Shown here: piece after piece, positions 7,062-58,604 of the stretch
Layout of the letters: the number at the start of each line of letters is the position of its first letter
How positions within the stretch are numbered: position 1 is the first letter of the stretch
Source: Nitrospirales bacterium
GTDB lineage: Bacteria > Nitrospirota > Nitrospiria > Nitrospirales > UBA8639
Length of the DNA stretch: 64,000 nucleotides
Direction: 5' to 3'
Assembly: GCA_029261355.1 (NCBI GenBank)
Contig: JAJDBM010000058.1
Span: 62,001-126,000 of the forward strand
Notes under the pieces: generated by a model
Databases searched by the model: none
Told to the model about the DNA's origin: nothing
The model's input: only the letters and a program-made list of their open reading frames with translations
Program-made: the position numbers and the translations under genes

Positions 7062-7524
7062 TGGGTATCTTTCGTATCAATACTTTCCTCAAGAGTCATT
7101 CCTGTATTTTCACTTAGTGTGCAGTTTGATTTTTTGTCGCTCATTGTTTTGCCTGCCTATATTCTATTTCATGGTTCCTTCTTTCCAATGTTGGCCATTT
7201 TTTATCCCGAAGCGATCCTGATACACTTGTATGCAGTGTATGATTGAATTGGAATAATTAGGTCTTCTCTTTCCTCAATCTTATTTCCTACGTTATTCCC
7301 GGCTTGAGGTGTCGACCGTACAAATCGTATGAGGACTTTCCTCCTGCTGTTGAGGGTTCAAGCTTTCCTCACGTCATGTATTGCGTGAATCTATATTCAA
7401 ATAGATGAAAATTGATGATATGACTATCCAGGAGAGTCGGGCATTTGTCGTTCGACAGTCTCAGGGAAGAAAAATTACAATAGGCCGTGAGCCTATACAT
7501 ACTGAAACACAGGGGAGTGGCGTC
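7062..7524. other. Intergenic region before phoB
   Basis: About 460 bases with no convincing gene. An open frame from 7405 runs in phase into phoB, but it adds a 40-residue leader unlike any response regulator, so I treat it as untranslated. I see no phased GTNAC repeats here, in contrast to the phosphate genes downstream. Confidence 0.5.
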
Positions 7525-8214
7525 ATGGCACAGAAAGTTTTAATCGTTGATGATGAGCCCGATATTCTGGAGCTGGTTCGATTTCATATCGAGAAAGAAG
7601 GGCTACATTGTTATTCTGCAACAGATGGAGAGGCCGCTCTCCGCCTTGCTCGATCAGAGAGACCTGATCTCATTATTTTAGACTTAATGTTACCTGGGAT
7701 TGATGGGCTAGAAATTTGTCGACTCCTTCGGAGGGAGCCCAACACTTCACATATTGCTATTATCATGCTGACAGCCAAAGCTGAAGAAGTGGATCGGATT
7801 GTTGGATTGGAAGTGGGGGCTGATGATTATATTGTTAAGCCATTTAGTCCACGTGAACTGGTTGCACGGGTGAAGGCCGTATTACGTCGTGGGCGAGCAC
7901 CTGACGAGAGTCAGCTTAAAAAGGTTGGGGCCTTGGAGGTTGATGAAGCGAAGCACCAGGTGAGAGTTGCGGAGAAAGTCGTAGAGCTCACTGTGAAAGA
8001 ATTTGACTTACTCTGTGCGTTGATGGCAGCGAAAGGGAGAGTGTTGAGTCGTGATCAGATATTAGAATCAGTGTGGGGGTACACGAATGCGATAGATATT
8101 GAATCTCGAACGGTGGATGTCCATGTTCGGCGTCTTCGAGAAAAGCTTGGTGTTGAGCAGGTGCGGATTGCTACGGTGAAAGGCGTTGGGTACCGATTTG
8201 ATGGGGAATCCTAA
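7525..8214 (+). CDS. phoB: Phosphate regulon response regulator PhoB
   Basis: OmpR/PhoB-family regulator of 229 residues that would activate phosphate-starvation promoters when phosphorylated by PhoR. The receiver occupies about residues 1-120 (VLIVDDEPDI, phosphoacceptor in LIILDLMLPGIDG, conserved Thr in IIMLTAKAEE, Lys in DDYIVKPFSP). The winged-helix effector domain (about 130-228) carries LTVKEFDLLCALM and RTVDVHVRRLREKLG, ending in GVGYRFDG. Start chosen at 7525 because MAQKVLIVDDE is the usual N-terminus and GGGGAG lies just upstream. It is followed 23 bp later by phoR. Its target sites are probably the phased repeats described elsewhere in this window. Confidence 0.93.
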   Translation: MAQKVLIVDDEPDILELVRFHIEKEGLHCYSATDGEAALRLARSERPDLIILDLMLPGIDGLEICRLLRREPNTSHIAIIMLTAKAEEVDRIVGLEVGADDYIVKPFSPRELVARVKAVLRRGRAPDESQLKKVGALEVDEAKHQVRVAEKVVELTVKEFDLLCALMAAKGRVLSRDQILESVWGYTNAIDIESRTVDVHVRRLREKLGVEQVRIATVKGVGYRFDGES

Positions 8215-8237: not shown

Positions 8238-9629
8238 ATGAGTCGTCAATTTACCATAAGGCTATCACTGGCACTGGTCGTGAGTTTTGCCATCGGAATA
8301 GTGAGTGGTTCGTTCCTTATTGGGACGACCATGTCCGTGAGTCTTGTCCTTCTGTGTTTGGGAGTCAGTGCGATCGTTGTCTTCTGGATAGGGAACGGGA
8401 TCGTGAATAGATGGCTCCATCCAGTGCGTGAGGCTCAACGTGTGGCAGAAGAATTAGTGTTGTTATTAGGCCCGAATGAACAGGTTGAGAGAACTGGGGA
8501 TGAATTAGAAGAATTGCAGAAAATTCTCAGATATCTGTCGCTGCGTCTGTTAGAACGTCTGCATGTACTGGAAGAAGAACGAGCCAAGGTCACGGCCATT
8601 CTGGATAGCATGGTGGAAGGCGTTATGGCTCTCGATTCCCAAGGGCGTATTGTGGTGGTTAACCCCAGCGCACGGCGTATTTTTGATTTAGCTGATGAAC
8701 CGGTAGAGGGCCGACCTTTGTTAGAGGCCATTCGAAATCGTGAACTGACTGAATTTGTTGAATGGTGTCAATCTCACACTAGTTCGGAGCGTTGTGGGCG
8801 AGAAATTGTGCTGACCATGCCGCAGCGTCGTGTCCTTGATATTAATGCGATGCCGCTGGTCGTATCTGGTCAACCCCGTGGCCTTGTATTGGTACTGCAT
8901 GATATTTCTAAAATTCGGCAATTGGAGCAAGTGCGAGCAGAGTTTGTGGCGAATGTCTCGCATGAGCTTCGCACGCCGTTGACAGCTATAAAAGGATACT
9001 TAGAAACCTTGCTGGATGAACCGTCGAGCGATCCCGTTATGTATCGGCGTTTCTTGGGAGTGGCTCATACGCATGCCGATCGGTTGGGGCGTTTGGTCAA
9101 TGATTTAATGAACCTTTCCGATATTGAGACGGGAAAAATCTCTTTCAACCCAGATCAGTTGTTATTGATGGAAGTCGTCAATGAAGTTTCAGGGATCTAT
9201 GAGCCTGAGGCGCTCAAGAAAGGGATCGTGCTCGTAAATCAGGTTCCTTCTGATGTCCAGGTGTTTGCTGATCGAGATCGTGTGAGTCAAATCATCGTGA
9301 ATCTTGTCGATAATGCTTTAAAATATACGTCGCGTGATGGGAACATTACGTTTATGACCTTACCCACAAATGGAAAGCCCGAGCATGTGACGTTACAAAT
9401 ACGCGATACTGGCCAAGGTATTCCCCCAGCAGATCTTTCTCGTATCACTGAACGATTTTACCGTGTCGATAAGGCTCGGTCTCGTGAAGAGGGAGGGACA
9501 GGGCTTGGGCTCGCTATCGTCAAGCACCTTGTTCATCTACATAGTGGTACCATTCAGATTACAAGCGAACTTGGAAAAGGTACGACAGTAGAAGTGGTCT
9601 TACCTGCCAGAATGTTGTCCCTAACTTAA
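8238..9629 (+). CDS. phoR: Phosphate regulon sensor histidine kinase PhoR
   Basis: Membrane histidine kinase of 463 residues, partner of PhoB. Two N-terminal hydrophobic segments (about residues 10-60) with almost no periplasmic loop, as in PhoR, are followed by a HAMP-like/linker helix, a PAS domain (ILDSMVEGVMALDSQGRIVVVN, about 115-230, given here as two overlapping motifs ILDSMVEGVM and GRIVVVN), HisKA with FVANVSHELRTPLTAIKGY (His about residue 243), and HATPase_c (NLVDNALKYT, DTGQGI, GTGLGLAIVKHL). The lack of a large sensor domain agrees with signalling through PstSCAB-PhoU rather than direct ligand binding. It forms an operon with phoB. Confidence 0.92.
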   Translation: MSRQFTIRLSLALVVSFAIGIVSGSFLIGTTMSVSLVLLCLGVSAIVVFWIGNGIVNRWLHPVREAQRVAEELVLLLGPNEQVERTGDELEELQKILRYLSLRLLERLHVLEEERAKVTAILDSMVEGVMALDSQGRIVVVNPSARRIFDLADEPVEGRPLLEAIRNRELTEFVEWCQSHTSSERCGREIVLTMPQRRVLDINAMPLVVSGQPRGLVLVLHDISKIRQLEQVRAEFVANVSHELRTPLTAIKGYLETLLDEPSSDPVMYRRFLGVAHTHADRLGRLVNDLMNLSDIETGKISFNPDQLLLMEVVNEVSGIYEPEALKKGIVLVNQVPSDVQVFADRDRVSQIIVNLVDNALKYTSRDGNITFMTLPTNGKPEHVTLQIRDTGQGIPPADLSRITERFYRVDKARSREEGGTGLGLAIVKHLVHLHSGTIQITSELGKGTTVEVVLPARMLSLT

Positions 9630-14222: not shown

Positions 14223-14537
14223 ATGAAATTCTCTCAATGCACACATAATGAAGAGCTATTTGACCCTACTCTTGAATTTCTTCATGAGGAACTCCTGACA
14301 ACGCTGAAATTATCGGGACCTCTGCCTGTCGAGGAACTTGTTACGCAATTGTCGAAATTTCGATGGGTCGATGTTTTGAAAGGGATTAGTTGGTTGTGGG
14401 GGAAAGGTCAGCTTGAATTGGGTCAGGACTCTGGACGATTGAAGCTCTGGTCTTTAGAGAATGATGAAACTATGCGGTGTATCGATGGCGAGACTATAAA
14501 AAAGTCGCACAATATTGCTGAGTTAACAGTTTCGTAA
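14223..14537 (+). CDS. Small winged-helix-like protein upstream of pstS
   Basis: A 104-residue soluble protein of no family I recognise. The start at 14223 follows GGAGGG; an in-frame ATG at 14160 sits inside the putative Pho promoter and is less likely. The sequence EELLTTLKLSGPLPVEELVTQL, followed by VDVLKGISWLWGKGQLELG (quoted as separate motifs), has the helix-turn-helix-strand rhythm of a small winged helix. It lies 68 bp before pstS and has its own Pho-box-like promoter, so it may be co-regulated with phosphate uptake. A role in regulation is inference only. Confidence 0.6.
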   Translation: MKFSQCTHNEELFDPTLEFLHEELLTTLKLSGPLPVEELVTQLSKFRWVDVLKGISWLWGKGQLELGQDSGRLKLWSLENDETMRCIDGETIKKSHNIAELTVS

Positions 14538-14576
14538 CATGGGCGTTACATATAAGAAATACGGTTTCTCTATAAT
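14522..14576 (+). promoter_or_regulatory. Putative Pho box upstream of pstS
   Basis: Three units in 11-bp register: GTTAAC at 14522, CGTAAC at 14533 and CGTTAC at 14544. A hexamer TACGGT lies 10 bp after the last unit (14560-14565), and a perfect TATAAT lies at 14571-14576. Either could serve as -10. The units overlap the end of the preceding gene, and pstS starts 30 bp beyond the TATAAT. Confidence 0.72.
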
Positions 14577-40284: not shown

Positions 40285-40339
40285 ATTTACCGAAATGTAA
40301 CAGAGTCATCATTTGACCGTAACGCATTTGAACTATCTT
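40285..40339 (+). promoter_or_regulatory. Putative Pho box and -10 for the Na+/phosphate transporter operon
   Basis: Hexamers in 11-bp register: ATTTAC 40285, TGTAAC 40296, CATCAT 40307 and CGTAAC 40318. TATCTT at 40334-40339 follows the last unit after exactly 10 bp. The layout is the same as at 14116, including the leading ATTTAC. The gene starts 46 bp after the -10. Confidence 0.75.
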
Positions 40340-41554: not shown

Positions 41555-41577
41555 GCCGAAATTGAGGGGGAGTTATC

Positions 41578-41820: not shown

Positions 41821-41832
41821 AGGCCTTCACTA

Positions 41833-42973: not shown

Positions 42974-44446
42974 ATGAAAAGACAGTCATTCGCTCAAACA
43001 GTAGGGTTTTTGGGTTTTGGCGCGATCCTGCTCTCTAGCCAAATGGCGGGAGCTAACGATTTCGGTAAGTTTATTGAAAAAAATCTAAAGAAGAATTCCT
43101 GGGAGTTGTATGGCATTGAGAAGCCAATCAAGAATTCTGCTCCTGCAACGTTGTCAGGATATCGTATGCCTGGCCAGCCAGCAAACAAACAGGTCAAACT
43201 TGCAAAAGGCCTGCACGTGGAATATGTCACAAGAGAGGCGGCACGCCATGCTGATCAATTTGCCTTTTGGCCAAATGATCGCAATCCCAAATGGCTCGTG
43301 TTCTGTAATGAGATATTTCCCGGTAGTCCATTGAATACTGGTGATCATCCGTCCGTTCAGGCCATTAGGATTCGGGATGGAAAAGTGAAGACCATTCTTC
43401 GTGGCTTGGATGGTTGTGATGGGATTCGACGAACCCCGTGGGGAACCATCTTGGCGACAGAAGAAACGTCTGATGGGTATGCCTGGGAGATCATCAAGCC
43501 TATTAGAGTGAACAATCATCGAGTCTCAAATCGCACGGCCGGGACGATCGTCAATCGAAAAGGAAATCCATCTAAGAGAGTCGTGCGACGTGATGCATTA
43601 CCGACAATGTCTTGGGAAGGCATTCATATTACATCTGAAGGTGTTGTGTACGCTGGGGATGAACTCAGACCTGGAACGGGCACAGACGATGCCGATGGTG
43701 GGGCCCTGTATAAGTTTATTCCCAATAACTTTCACACGGGTGGACGTATCAAGAATCTCAATGATTCCCCGTTGACAGCTGGAAGTGTCTATGCAGCACA
43801 AGTCTCCTGCCGCGATAGTGGCCAACAGTATGGCCAAGGCTGTGAAGTTGGGAACGGTGCCTGGGTGTCGGTCAATGCGGCTTCTGCACGTTTCGATGCC
43901 GATGCCAATGGCGCGACCGGTTATTATCGCCCAGAAGATATGGATCCTGATCCTAAATTTGAAGGACCAGGTGTCAAGGTCTGTTGGGCTAATACCCAGA
44001 ATCGGTCAGCTCAGTTGTTCGGGGAAATTCAATGTATCGTCGATTTGAAGCCAATGGAAGCTTCAGATGACCGAACCATTGTCATCAATCGACTTGTTGA
44101 AGGAGACAGAGATTTCAATGCGTTTGATAACGTTGCCTTTCAACCTCACACTGGGAATCTCTATGTCATTGAAGATAATCCAAACGGTGATATCTTTGCC
44201 TGCCTTCCTGATGGAAAAGATCGAAATATTAAGTCTGATGGATGCGTGAAAATTTTGTCTGTGAAAGACTCTTCCGCTGAGCCGACAGGTTTCAAGTTTG
44301 ACGCGTCTGGGGAGACGGCCTATTTAGCCATTCAACATAGTGATGATACCAATATGCCACTTGTTGATACGAATGGTGACGGGACACCGGATTTTCCGAG
44401 TGATGATATTTTGAAAATCACTGGGTTTGCCGTTCCTCACGAATAG
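42974..44446 (+). CDS. phoX: PhoX-family alkaline phosphatase
   Basis: A 490-residue exported phosphatase of the PhoX/DUF839 family, a calcium- and iron-dependent enzyme that frees phosphate from many esters. The signal is MKRQSFAQTVGFLGFGAILL; PhoX is normally a Tat substrate, and here only KR is present, so the route is uncertain. Active-site stretches are complete: GCDGIRRTPWGTILATEE (147-164, with Cys148), AGDELRPGTG (227-236), YYRPEDMD (317-324) and LYVIEDNPNGD (396-406). AGGAGGG precedes the ATG. Of the three PhoX-like proteins in the window this one best keeps the expected catalytic residues. Confidence 0.9.
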   Translation: MKRQSFAQTVGFLGFGAILLSSQMAGANDFGKFIEKNLKKNSWELYGIEKPIKNSAPATLSGYRMPGQPANKQVKLAKGLHVEYVTREAARHADQFAFWPNDRNPKWLVFCNEIFPGSPLNTGDHPSVQAIRIRDGKVKTILRGLDGCDGIRRTPWGTILATEETSDGYAWEIIKPIRVNNHRVSNRTAGTIVNRKGNPSKRVVRRDALPTMSWEGIHITSEGVVYAGDELRPGTGTDDADGGALYKFIPNNFHTGGRIKNLNDSPLTAGSVYAAQVSCRDSGQQYGQGCEVGNGAWVSVNAASARFDADANGATGYYRPEDMDPDPKFEGPGVKVCWANTQNRSAQLFGEIQCIVDLKPMEASDDRTIVINRLVEGDRDFNAFDNVAFQPHTGNLYVIEDNPNGDIFACLPDGKDRNIKSDGCVKILSVKDSSAEPTGFKFDASGETAYLAIQHSDDTNMPLVDTNGDGTPDFPSDDILKITGFAVPHE

Positions 44447-44469
44447 AGACGTTGCGAGAGAAGATAAGG

Positions 44470-44498
44470 CCCCCGGTTCTGTTGAAATGGAACCGGGG
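44470..44498 (+). terminator. Hairpin after phoX
   Basis: CCCCGGTTC (44471-44479) pairs with GAACCGGGG (44490-44498) around a 10-base loop, 24 bases beyond the phoX stop. A T-tract is missing, so it may be a weak terminator or an mRNA-end stabiliser. Confidence 0.6.
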
Positions 44499-44535
44499 AT
44501 ACCTTGAACGTGTTAACCAATAAGCTATATCGATA

Positions 44536-45327
44536 ATGTTGAACGATGTGATGTACGGACAGGCAGTAGCAGGTTTAGTCACACTAGGTCGAATGTGTTG
44601 TCTATTGTTTGTGGTCACGTTTTGTCAGGTTGCATGGCCCTATGATATCTATGCCGATTGGAAAAAAGATGCACTCGACCTGGATTTTGATAAGGTTCAA
44701 AGTTTTGCTGATCATAAAGGACACGTTCCCTATGTTGTGTTCAGTAACACGATCGAAGATTTCCTAAATACGACGGGCTTCCAGACTCAAAAAAGTTGCC
44801 AGGTTACGGGACGAGTCACAGGGGCAAGCTCATTGTTCTACCAGGTTGGGGTGCATTCAAATGATTATCGCGTCGTGCTGTATTCCTCGAAGATCGATCA
44901 GGATGGGAGTTTTGATGTTACGAATGTTTTTCCTGGCACGTATAGAGTAGCCCCTCTTTCACAAGATGGAGGGAAGCTTATTTTTGGTCCACCAATGGGG
45001 CATTTGATTGCGTGTAACGATGGTCAATCAATCCACGTCGATTTTACAATCCAGGGTCGTCGAAACCAGAAAAAACAAGCAAAAGTTCACGAAAGTTCAA
45101 CCAATTCAAATACTCGTGAGCAAATGGGAATACAGCGAAACGTCATTAAGCAGAGCACGACATCCTGGCCCAGTCATCGTCGGCAACAATTGATACTCCA
45201 AATGTTAAGAGGACAAGTCTCTATTGAGGAGACTGCACGAACATACCGCTTGTCTGTTGAGCGACTTCAACAATGGCGTGAAGAATTCTTGATGAGAGCT
45301 GAGCAAGCTTTAGAGCGTATTGAGTGA
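44536..45327 (+). CDS. Exported beta-sandwich domain fused to a transposase-type helix-turn-helix
   Basis: A 263-residue open frame with two unlike halves. Residues 1-35 hold a hydrophobic segment (MCCLLFVVTFCQVAW from Met20 is a plausible signal). Residues about 90-175 resemble a carboxypeptidase-regulatory-like beta-sandwich (CQVTGRVTG, YRVVLYSSKIDQDGSFDVTN, FPGTYRVAPL). After a polar linker, residues 215-263 form an HTH like those of IS orfA proteins: RRQQLILQMLRGQVSIEETA and YRLSVERLQQWREEFL. DNA-binding and export signals in one chain are contradictory. A gene fusion by deletion or insertion is likely, with uncertain function for either half. It sits between phoX and the GDPD gene. Confidence 0.6.
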   Translation: MLNDVMYGQAVAGLVTLGRMCCLLFVVTFCQVAWPYDIYADWKKDALDLDFDKVQSFADHKGHVPYVVFSNTIEDFLNTTGFQTQKSCQVTGRVTGASSLFYQVGVHSNDYRVVLYSSKIDQDGSFDVTNVFPGTYRVAPLSQDGGKLIFGPPMGHLIACNDGQSIHVDFTIQGRRNQKKQAKVHESSTNSNTREQMGIQRNVIKQSTTSWPSHRRQQLILQMLRGQVSIEETARTYRLSVERLQQWREEFLMRAEQALERIE

Positions 45328-45400
45328 TATATCTAGTTGGGTGTCTCGAACCCGTACTGAACGACCTCTCGTATTCCTATGTACAGAGAGGAGGCTACTG

Positions 45401-45475
45401 ATGTTTACTGATAAAGGGGTAACGTATTCTATTTTTCTTGTCGTCATGATTGGTCTGGTTACGATGGTCGGGTAG
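45401..45475 (+). CDS. Possible 24-residue membrane microprotein
   Basis: ATG 45401 preceded by AGAGGAGG (8-base spacing) encodes MFTDKGVTYSIFLVVMIGLV followed by TMVG and a stop. It would be a single hydrophobic helix with a short charged N-terminus. The ribosome site is strong for so short a frame. It lies between the fusion gene and the GDPD gene; conservation would be needed to be sure. Confidence 0.4.
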   Translation: MFTDKGVTYSIFLVVMIGLVTMVG

Positions 45476-45613
45476 TTGGGAGCCATCAAAAGAGGTTCAG
45501 CTGTTTCGATTGAAGGAAATGTACATGATGGCAACAAAAATGAGCTGTCCCTTGTTGTTGCCTTATTCGCATGACCCTTAACCTTGAACGTGCAAGATGG
45601 TAAGGAGATACAT

Positions 45614-46954
45614 ATGCATGCAAAAATGTCGGTGCTATTGATAGTATTTCTGGTGATGTTTGCTGACCTAGTCAATGTCCATGCCGTGGGCCTTGATCGC
45701 TTTTCGAATGACAAGGTTCAGCTTGGCGTTCGCCCATTTTACCTTGTTGATCAAATGGAAGAGAGTAAGTTGAAACGAGAGCTTCAGCAATGCACGAAAA
45801 AAAAGCGGTTTCAACAAAGCGATTTTTCTATAGGGCATCGGGGCGCGCCAATGCAGTTCCCAGAGCATACGAAGGAGTCGTACGAGGCCGCTCATCGCAT
45901 GGGTGCAGGTATCCAGGAATGCGATGTGACTTTCACGAATGACGGGGAGTTGGTGTGTCGGCATGCACAGTGCGATTTGCATACCACGACGAATGTGGTT
46001 GCCCGAGAAGACCTTCGACATCAATGCAAGTTTCCACCGGAATTTGATGCACAAGGGAATCTTACCAATGCATCAACCATTACGTGCTGTGCTTCAGACT
46101 TTACCTTGGAGCAGTTTAAATCTCTCAAAGGCAAAATGGATGCAGCTGATAAGAACGCGACGACGGTTAAAGGGTACCTTGGGGGAACGGCAGATTACCG
46201 AACAGATTTGTATGCGACAGGTGGTACGCTTCTCACCCATGCAGAGAGTATCGCATTATTCAATCGTATGGGTGCCAAGTTCACGCCAGAACTCAAAGAA
46301 GGAAATGAGGATGACATTATGGCCATCTTTGGTAGCCAAGAGAACTATGCGTTGAAGATGATCGATGAATATCGTCACGCTGGAATCTCTCCGAGGCGCG
46401 TGTTTGCTCAATCATTCAACCTAGACGACGTATTGACCTGGGTGAATAAAAGACCTCGTTTTGGCAAGCAAGCCGTATTTCTCGATGGTGGGCCCATCCC
46501 TCGACCTAATCCAGGCCGATTTCTGAATGATCTCGCGGCCAAAGGTGTGAAGATTGTTGCGCCACCGATGCCGATGTTATTGAAGGTCAATCAAAATGGA
46601 AAAATCAAATCATCCAAGTATGCGAAGAAGGCCAAAAAAGCAGGTCTCAAAATCATCACCTGGACAACTGAACGGTCCGGTCGGATCGTCGAGGATGTGT
46701 TAACAGGAGGAAATACCTTTTATTATCAGACCATTCTTGATGCTCTCCAGAATGACGGCGATATTTTGAAGACCATTGATGTGCTTGCGCAAAAGGTTGG
46801 TGTTATAGGAATTTTTTCAGATTGGCCAGCCACCACCACATTTTATGCCAACTGCAAAGGATTAGGTTTGCGTCATCCTTATCATCTGCGGTGGAAGCAA
46901 GACCGATTATTTGATGACCTTTCCTTTAATAGCCAATTGCTTGATTATCAATAA
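45614..46954 (+). CDS. Exported glycerophosphodiester phosphodiesterase
   Basis: A 446-residue periplasmic enzyme of the GDPD TIM-barrel family, hydrolysing glycerophosphodiesters to an alcohol and glycerol-3-phosphate. Start at 45614 (six bases after AAGGAG) gives the signal MHAKMSVLLIVFLVMFADLV; an upstream in-frame start at 45584 is less likely. Catalytic motifs: SIGHRGAPMQFPEHTKESY (both conserved His/Arg and Glu), ECDVTFTNDGELVCRHAQC (Asp and second His), and FTPELKEGNED. The C-terminal half contains LKIITWTTER. It fits lipid-derived phosphorus scavenging. Confidence 0.9.
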   Translation: MHAKMSVLLIVFLVMFADLVNVHAVGLDRFSNDKVQLGVRPFYLVDQMEESKLKRELQQCTKKKRFQQSDFSIGHRGAPMQFPEHTKESYEAAHRMGAGIQECDVTFTNDGELVCRHAQCDLHTTTNVVAREDLRHQCKFPPEFDAQGNLTNASTITCCASDFTLEQFKSLKGKMDAADKNATTVKGYLGGTADYRTDLYATGGTLLTHAESIALFNRMGAKFTPELKEGNEDDIMAIFGSQENYALKMIDEYRHAGISPRRVFAQSFNLDDVLTWVNKRPRFGKQAVFLDGGPIPRPNPGRFLNDLAAKGVKIVAPPMPMLLKVNQNGKIKSSKYAKKAKKAGLKIITWTTERSGRIVEDVLTGGNTFYYQTILDALQNDGDILKTIDVLAQKVGVIGIFSDWPATTTFYANCKGLGLRHPYHLRWKQDRLFDDLSFNSQLLDYQ

Positions 46955-46966
46955 TATATGTTTAGG

Positions 46967-47004
46967 CTCAGTGAAGGTAGAGGTGTCCCTCTACTTTCAC
47001 TGAG
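46967..47004 (+). terminator. Strong hairpin after the GDPD gene
   Basis: CTCAGTGAAGGTAGAGG (46967-46983) pairs with CCTCTACTTTCACTGAG (46988-47004) with one G-T pair and a four-base loop, followed by a T-rich TTCTCTTGTT. It sits 12 bases beyond the stop codon. Confidence 0.8.
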
Positions 47005-47119
47005 TTCTCTTGTTGCGAAATATCGTTGAGTCATAACTTTCATGTTGTGACGTTTCAGTGATGAGTATGAGCCATTCTTGAAGAAGTTGGACTGAGTTTG
47101 GCAGATAAGGATGTAGAAT

Positions 47120-48616
47120 ATGAGAAAGTTGGCCTTGTGTTTTCTTGTAATGGGAATAGTCATGTACGGGTTGGAGAACATTCAGCCTCATTCCAATATC
47201 TCTTTAATGATAGCAGAATCTCTTGCTGAGACTGTCAAAGACCCCACACTACTACATACAGTTTCTGATTCTTCCTTATCACCGCTTTCGCCTCATATTG
47301 GCATGACGGGGAAGGTGGGTCTTGAGGATCGTTTGCATCGTACATTGGCAGGGAGTGTCACGTTAGCAGATGGTTTAGAGTCCGACTCTGTGGCTCAGAG
47401 AGTCAATGGTCTGGTGGGGCAGTTTATATTCTGGCCGAATGAACAGGATCCTACGCATCTCATTGTTTGCATGGAAGGTTCTCGGAAATTGGTTGGAACT
47501 GATGTCTCAGGAGACGATACATTCAATGCGTCCGTTCAACGTCTTTCTTTATCCAACAATATTTCAGAAACGATCTTGCGTGGTCTCGATCGTTGCGATG
47601 TGATCGAGCGAACACCATGGGGAACGGTCTTAGCTGCCGAAGAGGTTGAAGATGGTTCTGTCTATGAAATACTCCGTCCCTTACTTGTGACAAATCACGT
47701 TGTGCAAGATCGCTCTCGTGGACACGTAACGAATCGTAACGATCAGCCTTCAGCATTTGTGGCAAAACGTCCTGCTCTTCCGATCATGGCATGGGAAGGA
47801 TTAGCGGTTCTAGAGAATGGAGCGATACTTGGCATTGAGGAAAAACACACTCCCAATATTCATCCGCGTCAGCGAGGAGGGGTGTTGTTTAAATTTATTC
47901 CTGCTCACTCCCGTGTTAATGGTGCCGTGATCGAGAACTTAGACGAATCACCTTTGGTCGCGGGACGAGTCAATGCCATGCAGGTATATTGTCAACATGG
48001 GACAAAAGGGTTTGATGATTCCAGATGTTCGGGGATGATTAGTTGGCTTTCCGTTCGCGCGAGGAATGCTTCTCATGACGCTTTTGAAATGGGAACGGTG
48101 GGGTATAGGAGTCCTGAAGATCTCTATCTCGATACCTTTTACAAAGAGGAGGGTAGTCGTTTTTGTTGGACCAGCCTCACTCATAAAGACGTATTTCCAA
48201 TGGCTCAGGTACATTGTGCCATTGACTATGACCTACTTGGTGATGAAATTGATGTTCAAGGTATGGTGGCCACCAATTTCTTGAAAGGGAATCCATTATT
48301 TCGTTCACACGATGGAACTATCATACATCCAGAGACCGAGATGCTATTGACACTTGTTCATGGTCAAGACGAGATGTTGTTAGCTTGTGGGCTGACTCGA
48401 AAGAACATGCATTCGAAGACTTCGAAGTGTACGAATGTGTTGACTGTTCCAGGGACGCTTGCTGAACTGAAAAGTGTGCGAATGACAAAAGATGGAAAGA
48501 CGGTATTTCTTGCGCTTCAAAAACGGACAACGGGTGACCCATCGGATGTGGACAATTTTGAAGCCTATGAGATATTGAAAGTTGGTAATTTCTCTTCCTT
48601 ACTTTTCATTCATTAA
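47120..48616 (+). CDS. Diverged PhoX-family protein
   Basis: A 498-residue paralogue of the PhoX at 42974, with an N-terminal hydrophobic signal (LALCFLVMGIVMYGL). The front half is kept: FWPNEQDPTHLIVCMEG, RCDVIERTPWGTVLAAEE (158-175, Cys159 kept) and MAWEGLAVLENGAILGIEE. Two sites differ: RPED of PhoX is SPED here (Ser331), and the C-terminal VIEDN motif is replaced by LVHGQDE. It may have lost activity or changed substrate. AAGGAT lies before the ATG; the Pho-box geometry is not convincing upstream. It ends about 500 bases before the sigma factor gene. Confidence 0.82.
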   Translation: MRKLALCFLVMGIVMYGLENIQPHSNISLMIAESLAETVKDPTLLHTVSDSSLSPLSPHIGMTGKVGLEDRLHRTLAGSVTLADGLESDSVAQRVNGLVGQFIFWPNEQDPTHLIVCMEGSRKLVGTDVSGDDTFNASVQRLSLSNNISETILRGLDRCDVIERTPWGTVLAAEEVEDGSVYEILRPLLVTNHVVQDRSRGHVTNRNDQPSAFVAKRPALPIMAWEGLAVLENGAILGIEEKHTPNIHPRQRGGVLFKFIPAHSRVNGAVIENLDESPLVAGRVNAMQVYCQHGTKGFDDSRCSGMISWLSVRARNASHDAFEMGTVGYRSPEDLYLDTFYKEEGSRFCWTSLTHKDVFPMAQVHCAIDYDLLGDEIDVQGMVATNFLKGNPLFRSHDGTIIHPETEMLLTLVHGQDEMLLACGLTRKNMHSKTSKCTNVLTVPGTLAELKSVRMTKDGKTVFLALQKRTTGDPSDVDNFEAYEILKVGNFSSLLFIH

Positions 48617-48983
48617 TTTCACGTTATGGAATGACAAGTCAGGTTGAAGGGGTATATTCAAAGGGGGAACTGAGTTAAAAGAATTTTCTTTCAACTGCGT
48701 CTGCCGGTCTTACCTACATCTTTGTTCCTTCCTAACTATCTTCAAGTCCAACTATACAATTTCTATCGTGTTGGAAGAAGACGTCTCTACATACTGGCGA
48801 AACTTTCGCTCGTCATATAAAACGAATACTCGGTCTCGACTTCCAGCACTCACGGTTGTGTCTTGTTGATTATCCTAGTAACGGCAGTTGGATGCGTGAA
48901 GAGGTAGTGCAGATTTTCGTGATCAACTGCTGTTTCCAAGATTATTCATTGTCTGGGATATTCGTCTGTATTTGTGATCAAAC
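48617..48983. other. Intergenic region after the diverged PhoX gene
   Basis: About 370 bases without a supported gene, leading into the Pho-box-like promoter of the sigma factor. Confidence 0.4.
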
Positions 48984-49027
48984 AGTTACGTAGTTGATAC
49001 AGGATTGTCATGTGATCTGGTTATGGT
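48984..49027 (+). promoter_or_regulatory. Putative Pho box and -10 before the sigma factor gene
   Basis: AGTTAC 48984, TGATAC 48995 and TGTCAT 49006 are in 11-bp register. TATGGT at 49022-49027 follows the last after exactly 10 bp. The start codon (TTG 49182) lies about 150 bp beyond. Confidence 0.55.
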
Positions 49028-49089
49028 TGTGTCTACATAATACATTTCTAATCTTCTGTTAGCTCGAATAATTCTAGTCTTTCAATGTT

Positions 49090-49125
49090 GACTCCTCACG
49101 CACTGTAGAAAGTGTGTGAGGAGTC
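49090..49125 (+). terminator. Long hairpin in the sigma factor leader
   Basis: GACTCCTCACGCACT (49090-49104) pairs with AGTGTGTGAGGAGTC (49111-49125) with one G-T pair and a six-base loop. No T-tract follows, so it is more likely an mRNA structure in the leader, 57 bases before the start codon, than a simple terminator. Confidence 0.5.
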
Positions 49126-49181
49126 ATAATTCAGTTGTCACCATTATATCTTCTAGGCACATTTTACAAAGGAGTCCTACG

Positions 49182-50768
49182 TTGTCACATAAAAAGATTA
49201 TTGATACTTGTCAATTAGGTGACGAATTAAGATTGTCAGGTGCTTCTAGTACTCAACGAGTAGAAAATCGAGAGACAAGTAATGTTATGGACATGTACAT
49301 GCAGGAGCTCAAATCTTTTCCAGTCCCCACGCATGAGACTCAAACTTGTCTTGCAAAGAATATTCAGAAATGGAAACGTCGACGTGATGTCCTCTTGTTC
49401 ACGAATCCGATGTGCGTCAATTGGTTATTTCAATGGTTCGTTCTGGTTGAGAACGGTAATTTGGTATTAAACGATATTATTGACTACCGAAGAGAAAATG
49501 TGACTCGGCAAAACATGAAACCCAAAGTCGATGAGACGAACAAATATGTTCAACGAAATAAACTCATAGGCAAACTGTCAGTTGCACTGAAGACATTTCT
49601 AGTCTTGGATGAAAAGCGCAGAAGAGGATGGTGTGTGCCCAAAAGACAGAAACAGGTCATGCGAGACTTTAAGAAGTCACGGCAAGAGATGTTGAGTCTC
49701 ATTCGCTTAGTAGCATTGAAGTCTCAAGCAGTTACACGTCTATCAGAAGAATTGAACGCGATATATCGTGAACTATCAGTCATCCACGAAACAGCGTTGA
49801 GTCTCTTTCAGAAACTGAACAGGCCTGTATCCTCCGAGTTAACATTCGAAGCTATGCAGGCTATGCTCAATGCCGCTCTGAAATCCCAAGAGATAACGTC
49901 CAGTTCACGAGTATTGATCGGAGAAGTAGAGATTTTCTTGAATCGGCTGAGATATCTCACCGAGCATGTCACGTACATGCCATTGGATGAGTTTAGTAAG
50001 GTGATTACTCAAGTTAATTACGCTGACAGACAGATGAACTGTACTAAGTGTGACTTAGTTCAATCCAATCAAAGATTGGTCCTGACATTAGCCAGGAAAT
50101 ATAGTGGAAAACATTTAGATTTAATGGATTTTATTCAAGAAGGAAATATCGGGCTCATTAAAGCCGCGGAACGGTTTGACTATCGACATGGGAGTAAGTT
50201 TAGTACCTACGCTGTCTGGTGGATTCGTCAGGCCATGACGAGGGCGTTAGAAGATCAGGACTCTGGAGTCAGAATACCTGTGCATATGATTCATGCTAAA
50301 CGCTTCATCCAACGTGCAAAGCGGAATCTGACACAACAATTGGGTAGGCACCCTTCCACCGTGGAATTGTCAAATTTTTCAGGAACTTCACTCACACATG
50401 TTCAACAGATAGGGGGGCTGATCCAAGAACCAGCTTCTTTTGACGCGTTGCCCTCGACCTCAGCTAGCTCACAGCCACCGTATCGTTGGCTTCAATCTAA
50501 TGATTCTAGTCCATTAGATAATGTTGTCTATCGGCAAATGCATGAACGGATTTTTCCAATTTTCGGAATATTAAACCCAAAAGAGCAAGACATTGTACGT
50601 CGCCATTATGGTTTAGGGGCTGAGATGGAGGAATCCGATCGTACCAAAATAGGAAAGACTTACGGCGTGACTCGTGAACGAATCCGGCAGATCGAAAATA
50701 AGGCATTTGAAAAACTACGGCGTTCCCGGTATGTCCGCGGGCTTCGGAGTTATGTCCAATCCGATTGA
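49182..50768 (+). CDS. RNA polymerase sigma-70 family factor, RpoD-like with a large non-conserved region
   Basis: A 528-residue sigma factor. Region 1.2 begins MDMYMQELKSFPVPTHETQ. It is followed by about 230 residues of basic, helical, poorly conserved sequence. Region 2 has NQRLVLTLARKYSGKHLDLM, DFIQEGNIGLIKAAERFDYR and FSTYAVWWIRQAMTRAL; region 3 and region 4 end with GVTRERIRQIENKAFEKLR. I chose TTG 49182 because AAAGGAG sits eight bases before it; an in-frame ATG at 49116 lies inside the leader hairpin. The size suggests a group 2-like factor rather than the primary RpoD. With a Pho-box-like promoter it may link phosphate starvation to a wider programme. Confidence 0.88.
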   Translation: MSHKKIIDTCQLGDELRLSGASSTQRVENRETSNVMDMYMQELKSFPVPTHETQTCLAKNIQKWKRRRDVLLFTNPMCVNWLFQWFVLVENGNLVLNDIIDYRRENVTRQNMKPKVDETNKYVQRNKLIGKLSVALKTFLVLDEKRRRGWCVPKRQKQVMRDFKKSRQEMLSLIRLVALKSQAVTRLSEELNAIYRELSVIHETALSLFQKLNRPVSSELTFEAMQAMLNAALKSQEITSSSRVLIGEVEIFLNRLRYLTEHVTYMPLDEFSKVITQVNYADRQMNCTKCDLVQSNQRLVLTLARKYSGKHLDLMDFIQEGNIGLIKAAERFDYRHGSKFSTYAVWWIRQAMTRALEDQDSGVRIPVHMIHAKRFIQRAKRNLTQQLGRHPSTVELSNFSGTSLTHVQQIGGLIQEPASFDALPSTSASSQPPYRWLQSNDSSPLDNVVYRQMHERIFPIFGILNPKEQDIVRRHYGLGAEMEESDRTKIGKTYGVTRERIRQIENKAFEKLRRSRYVRGLRSYVQSD

Positions 50769-50862
50769 GTCATGTCGTGATCATATCCCAATTCAGCATA
50801 TCAGGTCATGATTTGGCCTAGGCTATTTTAATAGGTCTCTTACTCTTGTTTATTCATTTTTA

Positions 50863-50909
50863 ATTAACGTGAATGTTACATGCCTCTAACACCTCAGCAA
50901 TTTTATCCT
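50863..50909 (+). promoter_or_regulatory. Weak Pho-box-like series upstream of the broken zinc-ribbon gene
   Basis: ATTAAC 50863, TGTTAC 50874 and TCTAAC 50885 are in 11-bp register, and TATCCT is at 50904-50909, 13 bp rather than 10 bp after the last unit. The phasing is good; the promoter spacing is not. Confidence 0.4.
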
Positions 50910-51040
50910 GATAGTCTGCAGTCCATGAACGGTTTTTGTTTGCAAGGGTTTCTCGATTATCGGGTCTTAAGTGAAACGTTCCATTGTTCTCTTATCGTGT
51001 TTAAGTCAGGCGCGAGGATGTGCTGGTAAGGAGCAAACTC

Positions 51041-51236
51041 ATGAGACTTTCAACGGTAAACCCTAGAGCTCTTTTATCTGATGGCATCTGTCCACAGTGC
51101 TGTGATGTCATGGTATTGGCTGACAGTACTGATGTTAATGAAGTAGGTAGATCGGAATATTGGATTCGGCTTGCGTTGCACGGAATGTGAGGCAGTGCGT
51201 GATCCATTTCTGAAGTACCTACATATCTCGCATTAA
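51041..51236 (+). pseudogene. Frameshifted small zinc-ribbon gene
   Basis: ATG 51041 after AAGGAG encodes MRLSTVNPRALLSDGICPQC and on to SEYW, then drifts and stops at 51190. From about 51165 the next frame gives GFGLRCTECEAVRDPF and stops at 51236. Joined across a one-base shift, the CPQC and CTEC knuckles would form a zinc ribbon of about 65 residues, similar in layout to the intact gene at 28462. Confidence 0.6.
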
Positions 51237-51271
51237 GACATATGGTCTTTCGAGTGTGAGCACTTTCTCTT

Positions 51272-51410
51272 GGGCTCCTCTAAAAACTGTCATCTTTCAT
51301 GATTGCGGCGTCAGCTACGTGCTCGAATCCACATGTATTCGCCCATGCACTGCGGTTTTGCACTCTCAGCTTCCTTGCCCTCACAAAAATGATAGTTTTT
51401 AGAGGTGCCC
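51272..51410. repeat. MITE-like element with 26-bp terminal inverted repeats
   Basis: Left end 51272-51297 and right end 51385-51410 are inverted repeats matching at 23 of 26 positions (left begins GGGCTCCTCTAAAAACTGTC; the right, inverted, begins GGGCACCTCTAAAAACTATC). Both ends are flanked by TCTT, a possible 4-bp target duplication. The 87-bp centre, GATTGCGGCGTCAGC onwards, has no open frame of note and is shared with the repeat at 29913. A non-autonomous mobile element is the simplest reading; its parent transposase is not in the window. Confidence 0.7.
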
Positions 51411-51449
51411 TCTTCTTTCTCTACATTATAGTTTAAAGTAATTAATACA

Positions 51450-51776
51450 GTGACGCTTCAAGCTTATGCCAAAAATGTCCTCTCTTTCCAGGAAAAAACA
51501 TTAAGTGTTTCTTGTCAGAGTGACATTGTCTGGTTGACACGAAAGGAATTTCAAATTTTATTACACTTGTATTCGGCTATCGGGTTCGTGTGTTCGCGAG
51601 AGGAACTTCTCGCTAAAGTATGGGGGCGTGATGTGTTTGTGGATTTAAGAACGATTGACCGACATGTGGTGCAGCTTCGCCGAAAAATAAAGAACCTGGG
51701 TCAATGGGAGCTTAGCCTGGATACTGTCTGGGGAGTTGGATATCGCCTTCGAAAATCTGGATCCCTCCGAAGTTAA
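51450..51776 (+). CDS. Stand-alone OmpR/PhoB-type winged-helix DNA-binding protein
   Basis: A 108-residue protein consisting only of a Trans_reg_C winged helix: VWLTRKEFQILLHLYSAIGF, CSREELLAKVWGRD, the recognition helix RTIDRHVVQLRRKIK, and the closing VWGVGYRLRKS. There is no receiver domain and none in another frame upstream. The start is a GTG without an obvious ribosome site. It precedes ppx by about 90 bp on the same strand. It may compete with or assist PhoB, or be the remnant of a response regulator cut off by the MITE-like element 39 bp upstream. Confidence 0.72.
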   Translation: MTLQAYAKNVLSFQEKTLSVSCQSDIVWLTRKEFQILLHLYSAIGFVCSREELLAKVWGRDVFVDLRTIDRHVVQLRRKIKNLGQWELSLDTVWGVGYRLRKSGSLRS

Positions 51777-51864
51777 TCAGTTGTCCTTCTTTTTTTTCAG
51801 TTTCAAGACCTTCCCCAAATTTTTTATCTCTGTTAGTGTAACACTTTTTATCAGAGGGACAATC

Positions 51865-53418
51865 ATGAGTAAGCTTGCCGTTATTGATATTGGGACAAAC
51901 TCCATTCATATGATTTTGGTCGAGATCGGCACGGATTTCTCTTGTAAAGTGATGGATCGCTTTAAAGATATGGTTCGATTGGGTGATGGCACCTTTATGA
52001 ATCGTTCACTGTCGGAAGCGGCCATGATGCGAGGAACAGATGCTCTTCGAAATTTGACGAACCTCGCTCGAAATAAAGGATTTGATCGAATTGTTGCCAC
52101 GGCGACTAGCGCCGTTCGTGAAGCAAAGAATGGAGGAGAGTTTCTTCAGCTTGTTGAAGCTGAGACAGGACTTGAGGTTCAAGTTATTACGGGAAAGGAA
52201 GAAGCACGATTGATCTATATTGGTGTCCGCAATGGTATGGAATTATCAAGGACGCCGTCGTTGATCGCCGATGTTGGGGGTGGATCTGTAGAAGTCATCG
52301 CCTGCAACCAAAAGCAAATGTTCTTTGGTCGCAGTCTGAAGCTTGGTACGATTCGCTTGAAAGATCTTTGTCTCAAGGAAGATCCTCCGACAAAGGGAAT
52401 GATTAAAGAACTTGAAAAGACGATCAACGCTGGACTAGATGCTGGTCTTAAATCTTCACGCGATTTCAAGTTTTCAAGTGTCGTGGCCACATCTGGAACT
52501 GCAGGAAATTTAACAGAGATCATTTATCTTCGTCGATCAGGGAAACCCGTTCCTCAACTCAACCTAGCAACGATTGGGATAACCGAAATTCGGGAGATTG
52601 AAGCAGAATTAGCATTAGGTGATGTGAATGCTCGACTTGCGATTCCAGGTCTTGATCCAAAGCGCGTCGATACCTTACTTCCTGGGACGATGTTTTTTCG
52701 ATGTCTGCTTGAGCATGCTGGTCACAAAACTTTAACGATTAGTGATAAAGCGCTTCGTGAAGGAGTGATCTTTGATTTTATTGAACGGCATCGAGCAGGA
52801 CTGCAGGCAGAGCAAGAAATCCCGAATACTCGACGACGAAATGTGATGTTGTTTGGACGGCGTTGCCATTATGAGGAGTCACATGCCATTCATGTGGCGA
52901 TGCTCTCGCTTCGGTTATTTGATGAATGTATTCCATTGCACGATCTTGGAGATCAAGAGCGTGAGTGGTTAGAATATGCTGCCTTACTTCATGACGTGGG
53001 ATACGTCATTCGGCGGCGACAGCATCATAAACATACTTATTATCTGATTAAGCATGGTGATCTTTCTGGTTTGACCGCCGAAGAGGTGAATGTTGTCGCG
53101 CTTGTAGCTCGCTATCATCGGAGGGCTGTGCCCAAGGATAAGCATGATGACTTCAAGTCATTATCAGGACGACAGAGGAAGATAGTTCGAATTCTTAGTG
53201 CGATTCTTCGTCTTGCAGATGGATTAGATCGGAGTCAATTTTCAGTCGTTCAGCAGGTTCATGTCTCAATAGGAGATATGATTGAACTTGAATTGACATG
53301 TACGTCTGACCCCGAACTTGAGCTGTGGGCGGCACGGAAGCGCGTCTCTCTATTCGAGAAAGTATTCCATCGGCCGGTAGAATTCCTGTGTGTCTATTCT
53401 AATGGGCAACAAGAGTAA
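51865..53418 (+). CDS. ppx: Exopolyphosphatase/guanosine pentaphosphatase Ppx/GppA with HD domain
   Basis: A 517-residue enzyme releasing phosphate from polyphosphate or hydrolysing pppGpp. Residues 1-300 have the actin-like ASKHA fold: AVIDIGTNSIHMILVEI, ATATSAVREAKNG, IADVGGGSVEVIAC and ATSGTAGNL. The C-terminal part (about 330-510) is an HD-type domain with AALLHDVGYVI and ILRLADGLDRSQFS. ATG 51865 follows GAGGGA; the longer frame from 51736 overlaps the preceding gene in another frame and is rejected. It balances the PPK1 encoded at 23533. Confidence 0.92.
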   Translation: MSKLAVIDIGTNSIHMILVEIGTDFSCKVMDRFKDMVRLGDGTFMNRSLSEAAMMRGTDALRNLTNLARNKGFDRIVATATSAVREAKNGGEFLQLVEAETGLEVQVITGKEEARLIYIGVRNGMELSRTPSLIADVGGGSVEVIACNQKQMFFGRSLKLGTIRLKDLCLKEDPPTKGMIKELEKTINAGLDAGLKSSRDFKFSSVVATSGTAGNLTEIIYLRRSGKPVPQLNLATIGITEIREIEAELALGDVNARLAIPGLDPKRVDTLLPGTMFFRCLLEHAGHKTLTISDKALREGVIFDFIERHRAGLQAEQEIPNTRRRNVMLFGRRCHYEESHAIHVAMLSLRLFDECIPLHDLGDQEREWLEYAALLHDVGYVIRRRQHHKHTYYLIKHGDLSGLTAEEVNVVALVARYHRRAVPKDKHDDFKSLSGRQRKIVRILSAILRLADGLDRSQFSVVQQVHVSIGDMIELELTCTSDPELELWAARKRVSLFEKVFHRPVEFLCVYSNGQQE

Positions 53419-53857
53419 TGTTCTCTTTCCACCTTTCACACTAATCACATACTCCCCCCACTCAGATATGTCGGTGAGATGATCACGAGAAGAATTCTCA
53501 GTGGGGAGTCTCCTTCTATGGCTCACCTATTCGCCTGAGCCTAACAAACCGTTTAATATAATCAACTTCATGCTAGTTAATTAGTGCATGATACTGTCCG
53601 ATGTCTGAATCCGCGTATCCTCGTTCTACTCTCCCTGTAAGCCTCGTCCTTGTTTCGCCCGTACCATTAAGAGTCAGCCTATCTTCAGTCTATCCCTACT
53701 CTTTCCCCCTCAAACGGGTAATTGTTGCGAGACATGACGCATATCTATTCTTCTTTACTATGACAGATTCGACAAAATTTTTCTGCCTAAGAATTGCCTG
53801 AATCTACAACCGATTAATTACCCCCTGTGTTGTTGTCTGGTAAAAAGGAGTCGTGTT
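53419..53857. other. Intergenic region between ppx and the bactofilin gene
   Basis: About 440 bases without a supported gene. An imperfect inverted repeat of CTCCCC and GGGGAG with long spacing lies near 53450-53510; it might mark the end of the ppx transcript but is too irregular to name. A 66-codon frame at 53601 shows no protein-like features. Confidence 0.4.
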
Positions 53858-54265
53858 ATGAGTCAGGATATCTCTCACAATCTCGCACATCGTAAGGTTA
53901 CTTCATGTGATGATCAAGAATTCGAACTCTATGTTAGTCAGGGGTCTCGTATTCAAGGAGTCTTCCATGTTCGAGGTCCGATTCGGATTGACGGCTATGT
54001 TGAAGGGGCAATTCATACAGATCATACTGTGCAAGTAGGAAAAGATGCGGTCATTGTGGCCAATATTTATGCAAATTATCTTGTTTCCCAAGGGCCTATT
54101 CGTGGAGACGTCAAAGTTCGTGGACGGGTAGAGCTGTTAGCGCCTGCGAGGGTAGAGGGCTCAATTTCAGCTCCTAAGTTTACACTGGAGCAAGGAGTGC
54201 AAGTGACGGGGATGATTACAATGGAGCAGCACAAAGACGGATTGAAGAATCAGAAAATGTCGTGA
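53858..54265 (+). CDS. Bactofilin (polymer-forming cytoskeletal protein)
   Basis: A 135-residue protein with the bactofilin beta-helix: a repeated pattern of short strands (GSRIQGVFHVRGPIRIDG, VEGAIHTDHTVQVG, IRGDVKVRGRVELLA, ARVEGSISAPKFTLEQG) flanked by short disordered ends. Bactofilins form nucleotide-independent filaments at the membrane and often organise envelope or stalk growth. AAAGGAG precedes the ATG. It converges on sixA with only 11 bp between the stops. No link to phosphate is evident, though stalk-forming bacteria combine the two. Confidence 0.88.
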   Translation: MSQDISHNLAHRKVTSCDDQEFELYVSQGSRIQGVFHVRGPIRIDGYVEGAIHTDHTVQVGKDAVIVANIYANYLVSQGPIRGDVKVRGRVELLAPARVEGSISAPKFTLEQGVQVTGMITMEQHKDGLKNQKMS

Positions 54266-54276
54266 ACCGTCATCGT

Positions 54277-54780
54277 CTAGCTGTTCGCTAATTGTCGCAG
54301 CAGCCCAGGACGTACCCACCAATCTAAGTTACCACATCCAATTTTTGGTTTTTCCTCAAACTGCACCGCACAGGCTCCTGCTTTCTTAAGAGTGAGACCA
54401 GGAATATATCTTCCTGAAATCATCATGGCGGCAAGCTGCCCTAGATGAGGTTCATGTCCGATGCACATGACGCAGGCATCTTCAGGAAATTTCGTTAAGA
54501 TGGGAAAGGTGTCCATGGGAGAGTGCGTCAAGACGAGTTCTTGGCACACGTGCATATTTCCCTCTAGTGTAAAGACGTCTTCCACAATTTGTGCTGTTTC
54601 TAAGGCCCGCGTATAGGGACTAGAAAGCAAGTGTATTGGCTGGTCGGCTATATTCAAAAGGCCTTCTATTGCGCCGCGAGTTTTGTCCACTCCCTCACTC
54701 GTTAAGGGACGTTCGCTGTCGAGGCCGAGCCAGGCCTCCCGGGATACAGCAATTCCATGTCTAACGAGAATGCATTTCAT
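54277..54780 (-). CDS. sixA: Phosphohistidine phosphatase SixA
   Basis: A 167-residue histidine-phosphatase-superfamily enzyme beginning with the catalytic LVRHGIAV (His8). It also has SERPLTSEGV, LLSSPYTRALETAQI (second Arg) and the second catalytic His in CIGHEPHLGQL. SixA dephosphorylates phosphohistidine on signalling or phosphotransfer proteins, in E. coli including PtsO/NPr. The C-terminal RPGLLRQLANS is usual for the family. It forms a convergent pair with the bactofilin gene. Confidence 0.9.
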   Translation of the reverse strand: MKCILVRHGIAVSREAWLGLDSERPLTSEGVDKTRGAIEGLLNIADQPIHLLSSPYTRALETAQIVEDVFTLEGNMHVCQELVLTHSPMDTFPILTKFPEDACVMCIGHEPHLGQLAAMMISGRYIPGLTLKKAGACAVQFEEKPKIGCGNLDWWVRPGLLRQLANS

Positions 54781-54986
54781 TGATGTCTCGGCATAGTGTC
54801 TTGTGAGGATTCATGATTCGCACCCTATCAGAAAAGGGAAGAATGTGAAACGGTAATGAGGAAATGACAGAAGAATGTAGGGGAGGTAAGAGATGGTTGA
54901 GAGGTCGATGGATAGATATAAAAGTGGGAAAATATATTATACTTCTTGGGGGATTTCCTTAAAATCAATACATAATGTTGCGCATG
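54781..54986. other. Intergenic region between psiE and sixA
   Basis: About 200 AT-rich bases with no supported gene. It should hold the sixA promoter. Confidence 0.35.
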
Positions 54987-55469
54987 CTATGAGGCGGGAG
55001 CCTCATAGTCAACGCTGGTTTCAGATTTGGTTGGTGACCATTGGACTGCAACGACACGCGTGATGGCCAAGGTGATAATAATTCCGCCTAGTATGCCCCA
55101 CTGTGTCAGATGGGCTTCTTTGAACCATTGAGCAATGACTTCCGTGAGCATGACGACAAGAATGGTATCAACGATAAAGGTCACCTTGACTCGACCTTCC
55201 GAAAAGTATGTCAAGGTCGTTTTCAAGACTTCGACAATGGCTAAGAGTATCAGGGTGTTAATAATCACTTGCCGTAGAACGATTTCTAGGGGTTGTGAAA
55301 ATAATAACTCTAATCCAATGAACGTCATAAGTACCCCACCAGCGAGTGCTGTGAGAATGGTGATAATCAATAGGCTCAAAATGAGTTTGACGCCTTGAAC
55401 CCAAAATTGAGTCATGTCAATCGCGAAGGACCTATTGAATGCGGCGATTCCTGTATGGATAACTCTCAT
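54987..55469 (-). CDS. psiE: Phosphate-starvation-inducible PsiE family membrane protein
   Basis: A 160-residue inner-membrane protein with four hydrophobic segments (LILSLLIITILTALAGG, QVIINTLILLAIVEVL, VTFIVDTILVVMLTEVI, GILGGIIITLAITRVVAV) and the family pattern LKTTLTYFSEGRVKVTFIVD, split here as LKTTLTYFSEGR and VKVTFIVD. This matches PsiE, a protein of unknown role that in E. coli is controlled by PhoB. AAAAGGAG precedes the ATG. It lies 39 bp downstream of a CBS-domain gene that carries a Pho box, so it is probably phosphate-regulated here too. Confidence 0.85.
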   Translation of the reverse strand: MRVIHTGIAAFNRSFAIDMTQFWVQGVKLILSLLIITILTALAGGVLMTFIGLELLFSQPLEIVLRQVIINTLILLAIVEVLKTTLTYFSEGRVKVTFIVDTILVVMLTEVIAQWFKEAHLTQWGILGGIIITLAITRVVAVQWSPTKSETSVDYEAPAS

Positions 55470-55508
55470 ATTATTTGCTTTCTCCTTTTCTGTTGGGATG
55501 TGTGATTA

Positions 55509-55895: not shown

Positions 55896-55951
55896 GATAC
55901 TCTCCCTTCATTGAATGAATAGATGTGAATTGACCGATTTCTATAATGGTA

Positions 55952-55984
55952 AGACTAAACGACCAATGTTACTATTGCGTCACG
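55952..55984 (-). promoter_or_regulatory. Putative Pho box and -10 for the CBS-psiE operon
   Basis: On the minus strand CGTGAC (plus 55979-55984) and AGTAAC (55968-55973) are 11 bp apart. TAGTCT (plus 55952-55957) follows the proximal unit after exactly 10 bp. Confidence 0.6.
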
Positions 55985-56217
55985 GGTATGTATTGTTTTG
56001 GTAAATTGTGAGGAGTCTTGAACCAGATCTTTGCTCGGCTTGCAGGACATTCACTATAGTGTCCTCGTTGTTTTGCTTGCGGATGATCGTAGGAGTTTTT
56101 GAGATCTACAGAAAATAAACTTTTGAATTTCTAGGAGGTTAGGGCTAATAGTTGGTTCCGAATGTCTTCAGTGTTTGAACATTTCGGTAATTACTTATCA
56201 AGAAGTGAAGGAGTCCC

Positions 56218-56889: not shown

Positions 56890-56910
56890 ATGATTCATTT
56901 GACATGAAGC

Positions 56911-58494: not shown

Positions 58495-58531
58495 AGGATA
58501 GACGAGATCTGTTACGTTCGTGTTACGTCAG
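58495..58531 (-). promoter_or_regulatory. Putative Pho box and -10 for the porin gene
   Basis: Plus-strand TGTTACGTTCG (58510-58520) and TGTTACGTCAG (58521-58531) are an 11-bp direct repeat with 9 of 11 identities. On the minus strand the units read CGTAAC, and TATCCT (58500-58495) follows the proximal one after exactly 10 bp. This is the clearest box in the window. Confidence 0.82.
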
Positions 58532-58604
58532 AGTCAAGACGTGGTTAAAAGTGAAGCAAGACGAAGTGCGTAGGATGAAAAATCGAGGAGGACGTGAGTC
58601 TGAC

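Follow-up and report, generated by a model that had tools for sequence, protein, structure and literature searches.

The window, a stretch of 64,000 nucleotides from a 4.63 Mb genome, is a phosphate island (Table 1). This assignment, put forward in the preliminary description, is borne out by phoB, phoR/pnpS, pstS, pstB and phoU within the window; ppk and several PhoX/PhoD-type phosphatases are also encoded there. The genus counts five genomes in our collection, that of the window (G000) and G001 to G004. Upstream of the sigma factor gene studied here lies a diverged PhoX paralog, which matches no Pfam or NCBIfam model and has no ortholog in the island of G001. Two other features of the island are set down as they were seen. 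Directly past PhoX, positions 44536-45327 encode a 263-residue protein that combines, oddly, a secreted-looking N-terminal half and weak fn3_3 similarity with a helix-turn-helix at its C-terminus that recalls SciP or IS66 TnpA. An IS3-like transposase (rve-type by sequence), split in two overlapping frames, is found at 34884-35728.

Table 1. Features of the phosphate island discussed in the text, with the promoter footprint of the sigma gene ortholog.
Feature	Position	Strand	Basis or remark
PhoB response regulator, presumed activator	7405..8214	+	best model PhoB, 261 bits, just below 296 cut-off
PhoR/PnpS-type sensor kinase	8238..9629	+	PnpS model, 392 bits, just below 400 cut-off
pstS Pho box and -10 (reference site)	14522..14565	+	matrix
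pstS-pstC-pstA-pstB-phoU	14606-21377		order as listed
Na/Pi cotransporter Pho box and -10 (reference site)	40296..40339	+	matrix
Na/Pi cotransporter gene	40385
PhoX-type phosphatase, accessory module	42974..44446	+	domain and ortholog comparison
Glycerophosphodiester phosphodiesterase (GDPD), accessory module	45584..46954	+	domain and ortholog comparison
Diverged PhoX paralog, 498 residues	47120..48616	+	34% to PhoX at 42974
Candidate Pho box of sigma gene, three 7-nt repeats AGTTACG / TGATACA / TGTCATG, 11-bp register	48984..49012	+	layout and ortholog footprint
Predicted -10 element of sigma gene, TATGGT	49022..49027	+	9 nt past last 7-nt unit, 10 nt past last hexamer
Leader hairpin, 16-pair stem, 6-nt loop	49089..49126	+	folding; sequence not conserved
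Ribosome-binding site AAAGGAG	49168..49174	+	sequence; serves TTG 49182
Secondary RpoD-like sigma factor, 528 aa, TTG start	49182..50768	+	domain and family profile scores
Pho box and -10 (TAGTCT) of winged-helix gene	50874..50917	+	matrix; footprinted in congeners
PhoB-like winged-helix DNA-binding domain, no receiver	51450..51776	+	profiles; all five congeners
Exopolyphosphatase-like protein (ppx)	51868
Porin gene	58476	-
Porin Pho box and -10 (reference site)	58495..58538	-	matrix; kept in two congeners
Pho box footprint of sigma ortholog	L067, 11941 downward	-

The TTG start of the sigma gene and its ribosome-binding site, named early on as the best available, are confirmed; an alternative longer ORF begins at GTG 49116, within the leader hairpin. 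Pfam Sigma70_r2, r3 and r4 are recognised in the protein with 77, 28 and 42 bits, all past cut-off, as in members of the sigma-70 family. Region 1.2 is marginal, being over the cut-off in the ortholog, and a divergent non-conserved region is present. RpoD is the best overall family match, yet the protein stays far below every RpoD cut-off, with equivalog scores of 277.5 bits (cut-off 555) and 217 bits (cut-off 354), and no match to Sigma70_r1_1 (region 1.1) is found in it; both features set it apart from group 1. The genome encodes a separate RpoD, elsewhere, that scores 648 and 371 bits and has region 1.1, as well as three more RpoD-like factors. Against the rpoS equivalog the window protein reaches 176.6 bits for a cut-off of 378.7, which places it outside RpoS. 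The trees join the two orthologs in a 100/100 clade on a long branch that lies apart from the RpoD clade and from the other secondary factors, its length limiting how exactly the attachment point can be placed. The preliminary description, which called for such a placement, would have been contradicted by the gene being the only RpoD of the genome; this is not the case, and its RpoD-like sigma factor is most likely a secondary (group-2-like) sigma-70 factor beside a true housekeeping one.

Alignment of the window protein and its ortholog shows that Q437, a -10-contact residue, and the helix VTRERIRQIE are kept in both, that T440 is kept in the window protein and replaced by R in the ortholog, and that E458 is changed in both. 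A small insertion of extra residue(s) precedes helix 4.2. Region 2.4 of the window protein resembles that of RpoD, and the promoter contacts, to which Q437, T440, E458 and the VTRERIRQIE helix belong, appear mostly RpoD-like.

The hexamers AGTTAC, TGATAC and TGTCAT, starting at 48984, 48995 and 49006, are spaced by exactly 11 bp and followed after 10 bp by TATGGT, as first described. This is the arrangement of a PhoB-activated promoter, with 7+4-bp direct repeats in an 11-bp register that replace the -35 element; in E. coli the pho box likewise lies near the -10, in the place of the -35 (PMC4971064; PMC3616915). Transcription would be expected to start near 49033-49035. The layout is kept in the ortholog, whose -10 is TACGCT at identical spacing, and recurs upstream of pstS, the Na/Pi cotransporter, the porin and the downstream regulator gene, so that the proposal of a Pho-box-like promoter stands. 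None of these Pho-type promoters has a -35, and their -10 elements fit only the loose pattern TANNNT. A matrix describing three 7-nt units spaced at 11 bp, a 9-nt gap and TANNNT was built from eight such promoters, both sigma sites left out: two from the window (pstS and the Na/Pi cotransporter), three of the porin and three of the winged-helix gene, each from a different genome. These amount to four independent promoters picked by eye. Its training sites score 14 to 31 bits when left out one at a time. The window sigma site, at 10.6 bits, is the lowest of the set, and the ortholog site reaches 19.2 bits. In simulated sequence about 0.67 sites of at least 10 bits are expected per 64 kb on both strands, and about 0.003 on the correct strand of the 565-nt region upstream of the sigma gene. 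Comparison of the two sigma upstream regions (565 x 284 nt) gives as best ungapped match exactly the repeats, a footprint equalled by none of 1000 dinucleotide-shuffled pairs; the similarity between the two leaders is at chance level (24 of 200 shuffles as good). We regard this footprint as stronger evidence than the matrix score for a Pho-type promoter, the predicted control by PhoB resting on the pattern and one ortholog. A strict two-repeat pattern searched over the whole genome matches only at pstS and the porin and is therefore too narrow for a census of the regulon.

The leader hairpin starts 62 nt past the -10 element and consists of 15 Watson-Crick pairs and one G-U (-30 kcal/mol, z -9.2). 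Of what was first said of this locus, the Pho-type promoter, the island and the (secondary) sigma factor hold, as does the existence of the hairpin, with 16 pairs in place of 15; a regulatory role for it is unsupported, the structure being single-copy and different in sequence in the ortholog. A search of the orthologous leader for a conserved counterpart yields instead an unrelated 11-bp stem (z -4.2) with which it shares no sequence, the similarity between leaders being that of chance. Both genomes may favour a structured leader, one conceivable reason being mRNA stability. An intrinsic terminator is rejected by the absence of a U run behind the stem, and a repeat element by the absence of a second copy of the stem genome-wide. 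Pairing of the 5' arm with the ribosome site (GACTCCT with AGGAGTC) is conceivable, but it would compete with a much stronger local stem, which makes a switch unlikely. Rfam recognises no known RNA in positions 40000-60000. The arm GACTCCTCAC has three matches in the window for 0.17 expected, at 49090, at 49116 and at 56008, the last between the genes at 55895 and 56218.

An ortholog of the sigma gene was detected only in G001, another species of the genus, with about 42-43% identity, and, at the threshold applied, nowhere else in a sample of 296 genomes from across the phylum. The N-terminal alignment finds no match in 84,980 species genomes; the full alignment retrieves from the same genomes, among the matches listed, only generic RpoD/SigA-like proteins, the best of these with E 9e-56 and 28% identity. 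Gene order in G001 is that of the window, PhoX-GDPD-sigma-winged-helix-ppx. In G002, G003 (listed as 100% complete) and G004 the winged-helix gene and ppx occupy the same island context without the sigma gene, GDPD and the close PhoX. Sigma and GDPD are thus restricted to G000 and G001, as is, when the genus alone is considered, the closest PhoX. Their co-occurrence in the same two of five species indicates that the sigma gene travels with the organic-phosphate module, and its absence from the three others that it is not universally needed; this patchy distribution suggests that the factor is dispensable under normal growth. The gene has also diverged unusually fast. Between G000 and G001 its product is 43% identical; the corresponding values are 57-83% for its neighbours in the island, 85% for RpoD and 65-82% for another four sigma factors. 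Identity is 69% in region 2, 58% in region 4 and 27% in the non-conserved region, the reading frame being intact and kept in both genomes. Fast evolution in only two carrier genomes could reflect weak constraint.

Bacterial phosphate control usually has one tier, made of PhoB and the housekeeping sigma factor. The locus probably codes for a secondary sigma factor switched by PhoB that forms, with PhoX and GDPD, an accessory organic-phosphate module within the pho island. When phosphate is scarce, signalling by the PhoR-type kinase would activate PhoB, which would bind the three-repeat box in its position of -35 substitute; RNA polymerase carrying the housekeeping RpoD would then transcribe the sigma gene from the -10 at 49022. 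The sigma factor so induced would send part of the polymerase to promoters of its own, adding a second tier to the phosphate response; that there is a second regulon, and what it would contain, we infer. No target promoter emerged: a search upstream of PhoX and GDPD, the only candidate targets, gave no clear shared elements and nothing for GDPD, and the PhoX upstream region has a weak Pho-box-like segment (7 of 200 shuffles as good). If the proposal is true, a Pho-box-switched RpoD-like sigma factor forms a second tier that redirects polymerase, and the joint presence with PhoX and GDPD in two of five species would illustrate how a module for scavenging a nutrient may come with a sigma factor of its own.

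Other readings of the locus have to be weighed against this one. The sigma factor might join PhoB at the Pho promoters and boost the same regulon, with no second one, a feedback that the loose TANNNT elements without -35 and the RpoD-like region 2.4 would accommodate. We hold this to be unlikely: the congeners use the same Pho promoters without the sigma gene, and the position matching E575 of E. coli sigma-70 is K in the window protein (E in the ortholog), so that the PhoB-facing surface is not kept. In E. coli the substitution E575K lowers expression from pho promoters (PMC6384906), and the K counts mildly against the window protein serving PhoB promoters itself. The divergence described above (43% between congeners, where island neighbours have 57-83% and five other sigma factors 65-85%, with 27% in the non-conserved region) and the absence of the gene from three congeners would also suit a phosphate-controlled, nearly functionless relic of a transferred module that retained its promoter under relaxed selection. 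Two intact ORFs, regions 2 and 4 still at 69% and 58%, and a preserved promoter footprint render such a relic rather improbable.

The modest score of the promoter site (10.6 bits) would agree with a sigma factor for starvation in general or for stationary phase, its promoter only looking like a Pho box and being independent of PhoB. This we consider very improbable, since layout and spacing are shared with independent pho promoters and with the ortholog, the gene is embedded in the pho island, and all congeners have other secondary sigma factors for that role. The PhoB-switched secondary factor of an accessory module is accordingly the reading that we favour.

A sigma gene under PhoB has a precedent in vreI of Pseudomonas aeruginosa, an ECF sigma factor gene of the PUMA3 system with a pho box bound by PhoB, which is also required at the targets of sigma-VreI (PMC4971064). 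Both cases join a pho box to a sigma gene and add a second tier to phosphate starvation, PhoB binding being predicted here. VreI, however, belongs to the small ECF factors and is accompanied by an anti-sigma factor, VreR, and a surface receptor, whereas the window protein is RpoD-like with regions 1.2-4, sits inside a pho island and has no anti-sigma or receptor gene adjoining it, its neighbours coding for PhoX-like and winged-helix proteins; it therefore lacks the architecture and gene partners of VreI-type cell-surface signalling. SigE of Mycobacterium tuberculosis is raised in low phosphate downstream of the phosphate two-component system, but it is an ECF factor, and the link described goes through polyphosphate and MprAB instead of a Pho box in the sigE promoter (PMC10100808). 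With group 1 factors the window protein shares regions 2-4 and a non-conserved region; it differs by its score (277 bits versus 555), the lack of a detectable region 1.1, the presence of a proper RpoD in the genome and its 43% identity between congeners, versus 85% for RpoD. It resembles group 2 factors (RpoS, cyanobacterial SigB-SigE) in the lack of a detectable region 1.1, its non-primary status and, apparently, its RpoD-like regions 2-4, but is longer, has a large divergent non-conserved region and forms a two-sequence clade alone on a long stem. No description of an RpoD-like factor with a Pho box was found in the open-access literature, nor did that search return work joining Nitrospira, PhoB, alkaline phosphatase and a sigma factor. 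An RpoD-like PhoB-controlled sigma factor in a pho island would be a new form of the VreI precedent.

The winged-helix gene downstream, which directly precedes ppx, is found in G001 to G004 and, more distantly, in G302. Its promoter has a footprint of the same kind as that of the sigma gene, and its leader exceeds 500 nt. The recognition helix of its product is RTIDRHVVQLRRK in place of RTVDVHVRRLREK in the window PhoB, which might give the protein another binding site or make it a competitor of PhoB. More tentatively, the sigma factor could be a genus-restricted, fast-evolving RpoD-like protein specialised for phosphate starvation that recognises promoters of its own kind and governs its own regulon, forming together with this adjacent, Pho-box-controlled, receiver-less PhoB-like protein a second tier of two regulators. 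An imperfect inverted repeat (GGGCTCCTCTAAAAACTGTCAT ... ATGATAGTTTTTAGAGGTGCCC) that resembles a small mobile element lies at about 51270-51415, downstream of the regulator's Pho-type promoter and ahead of its start.
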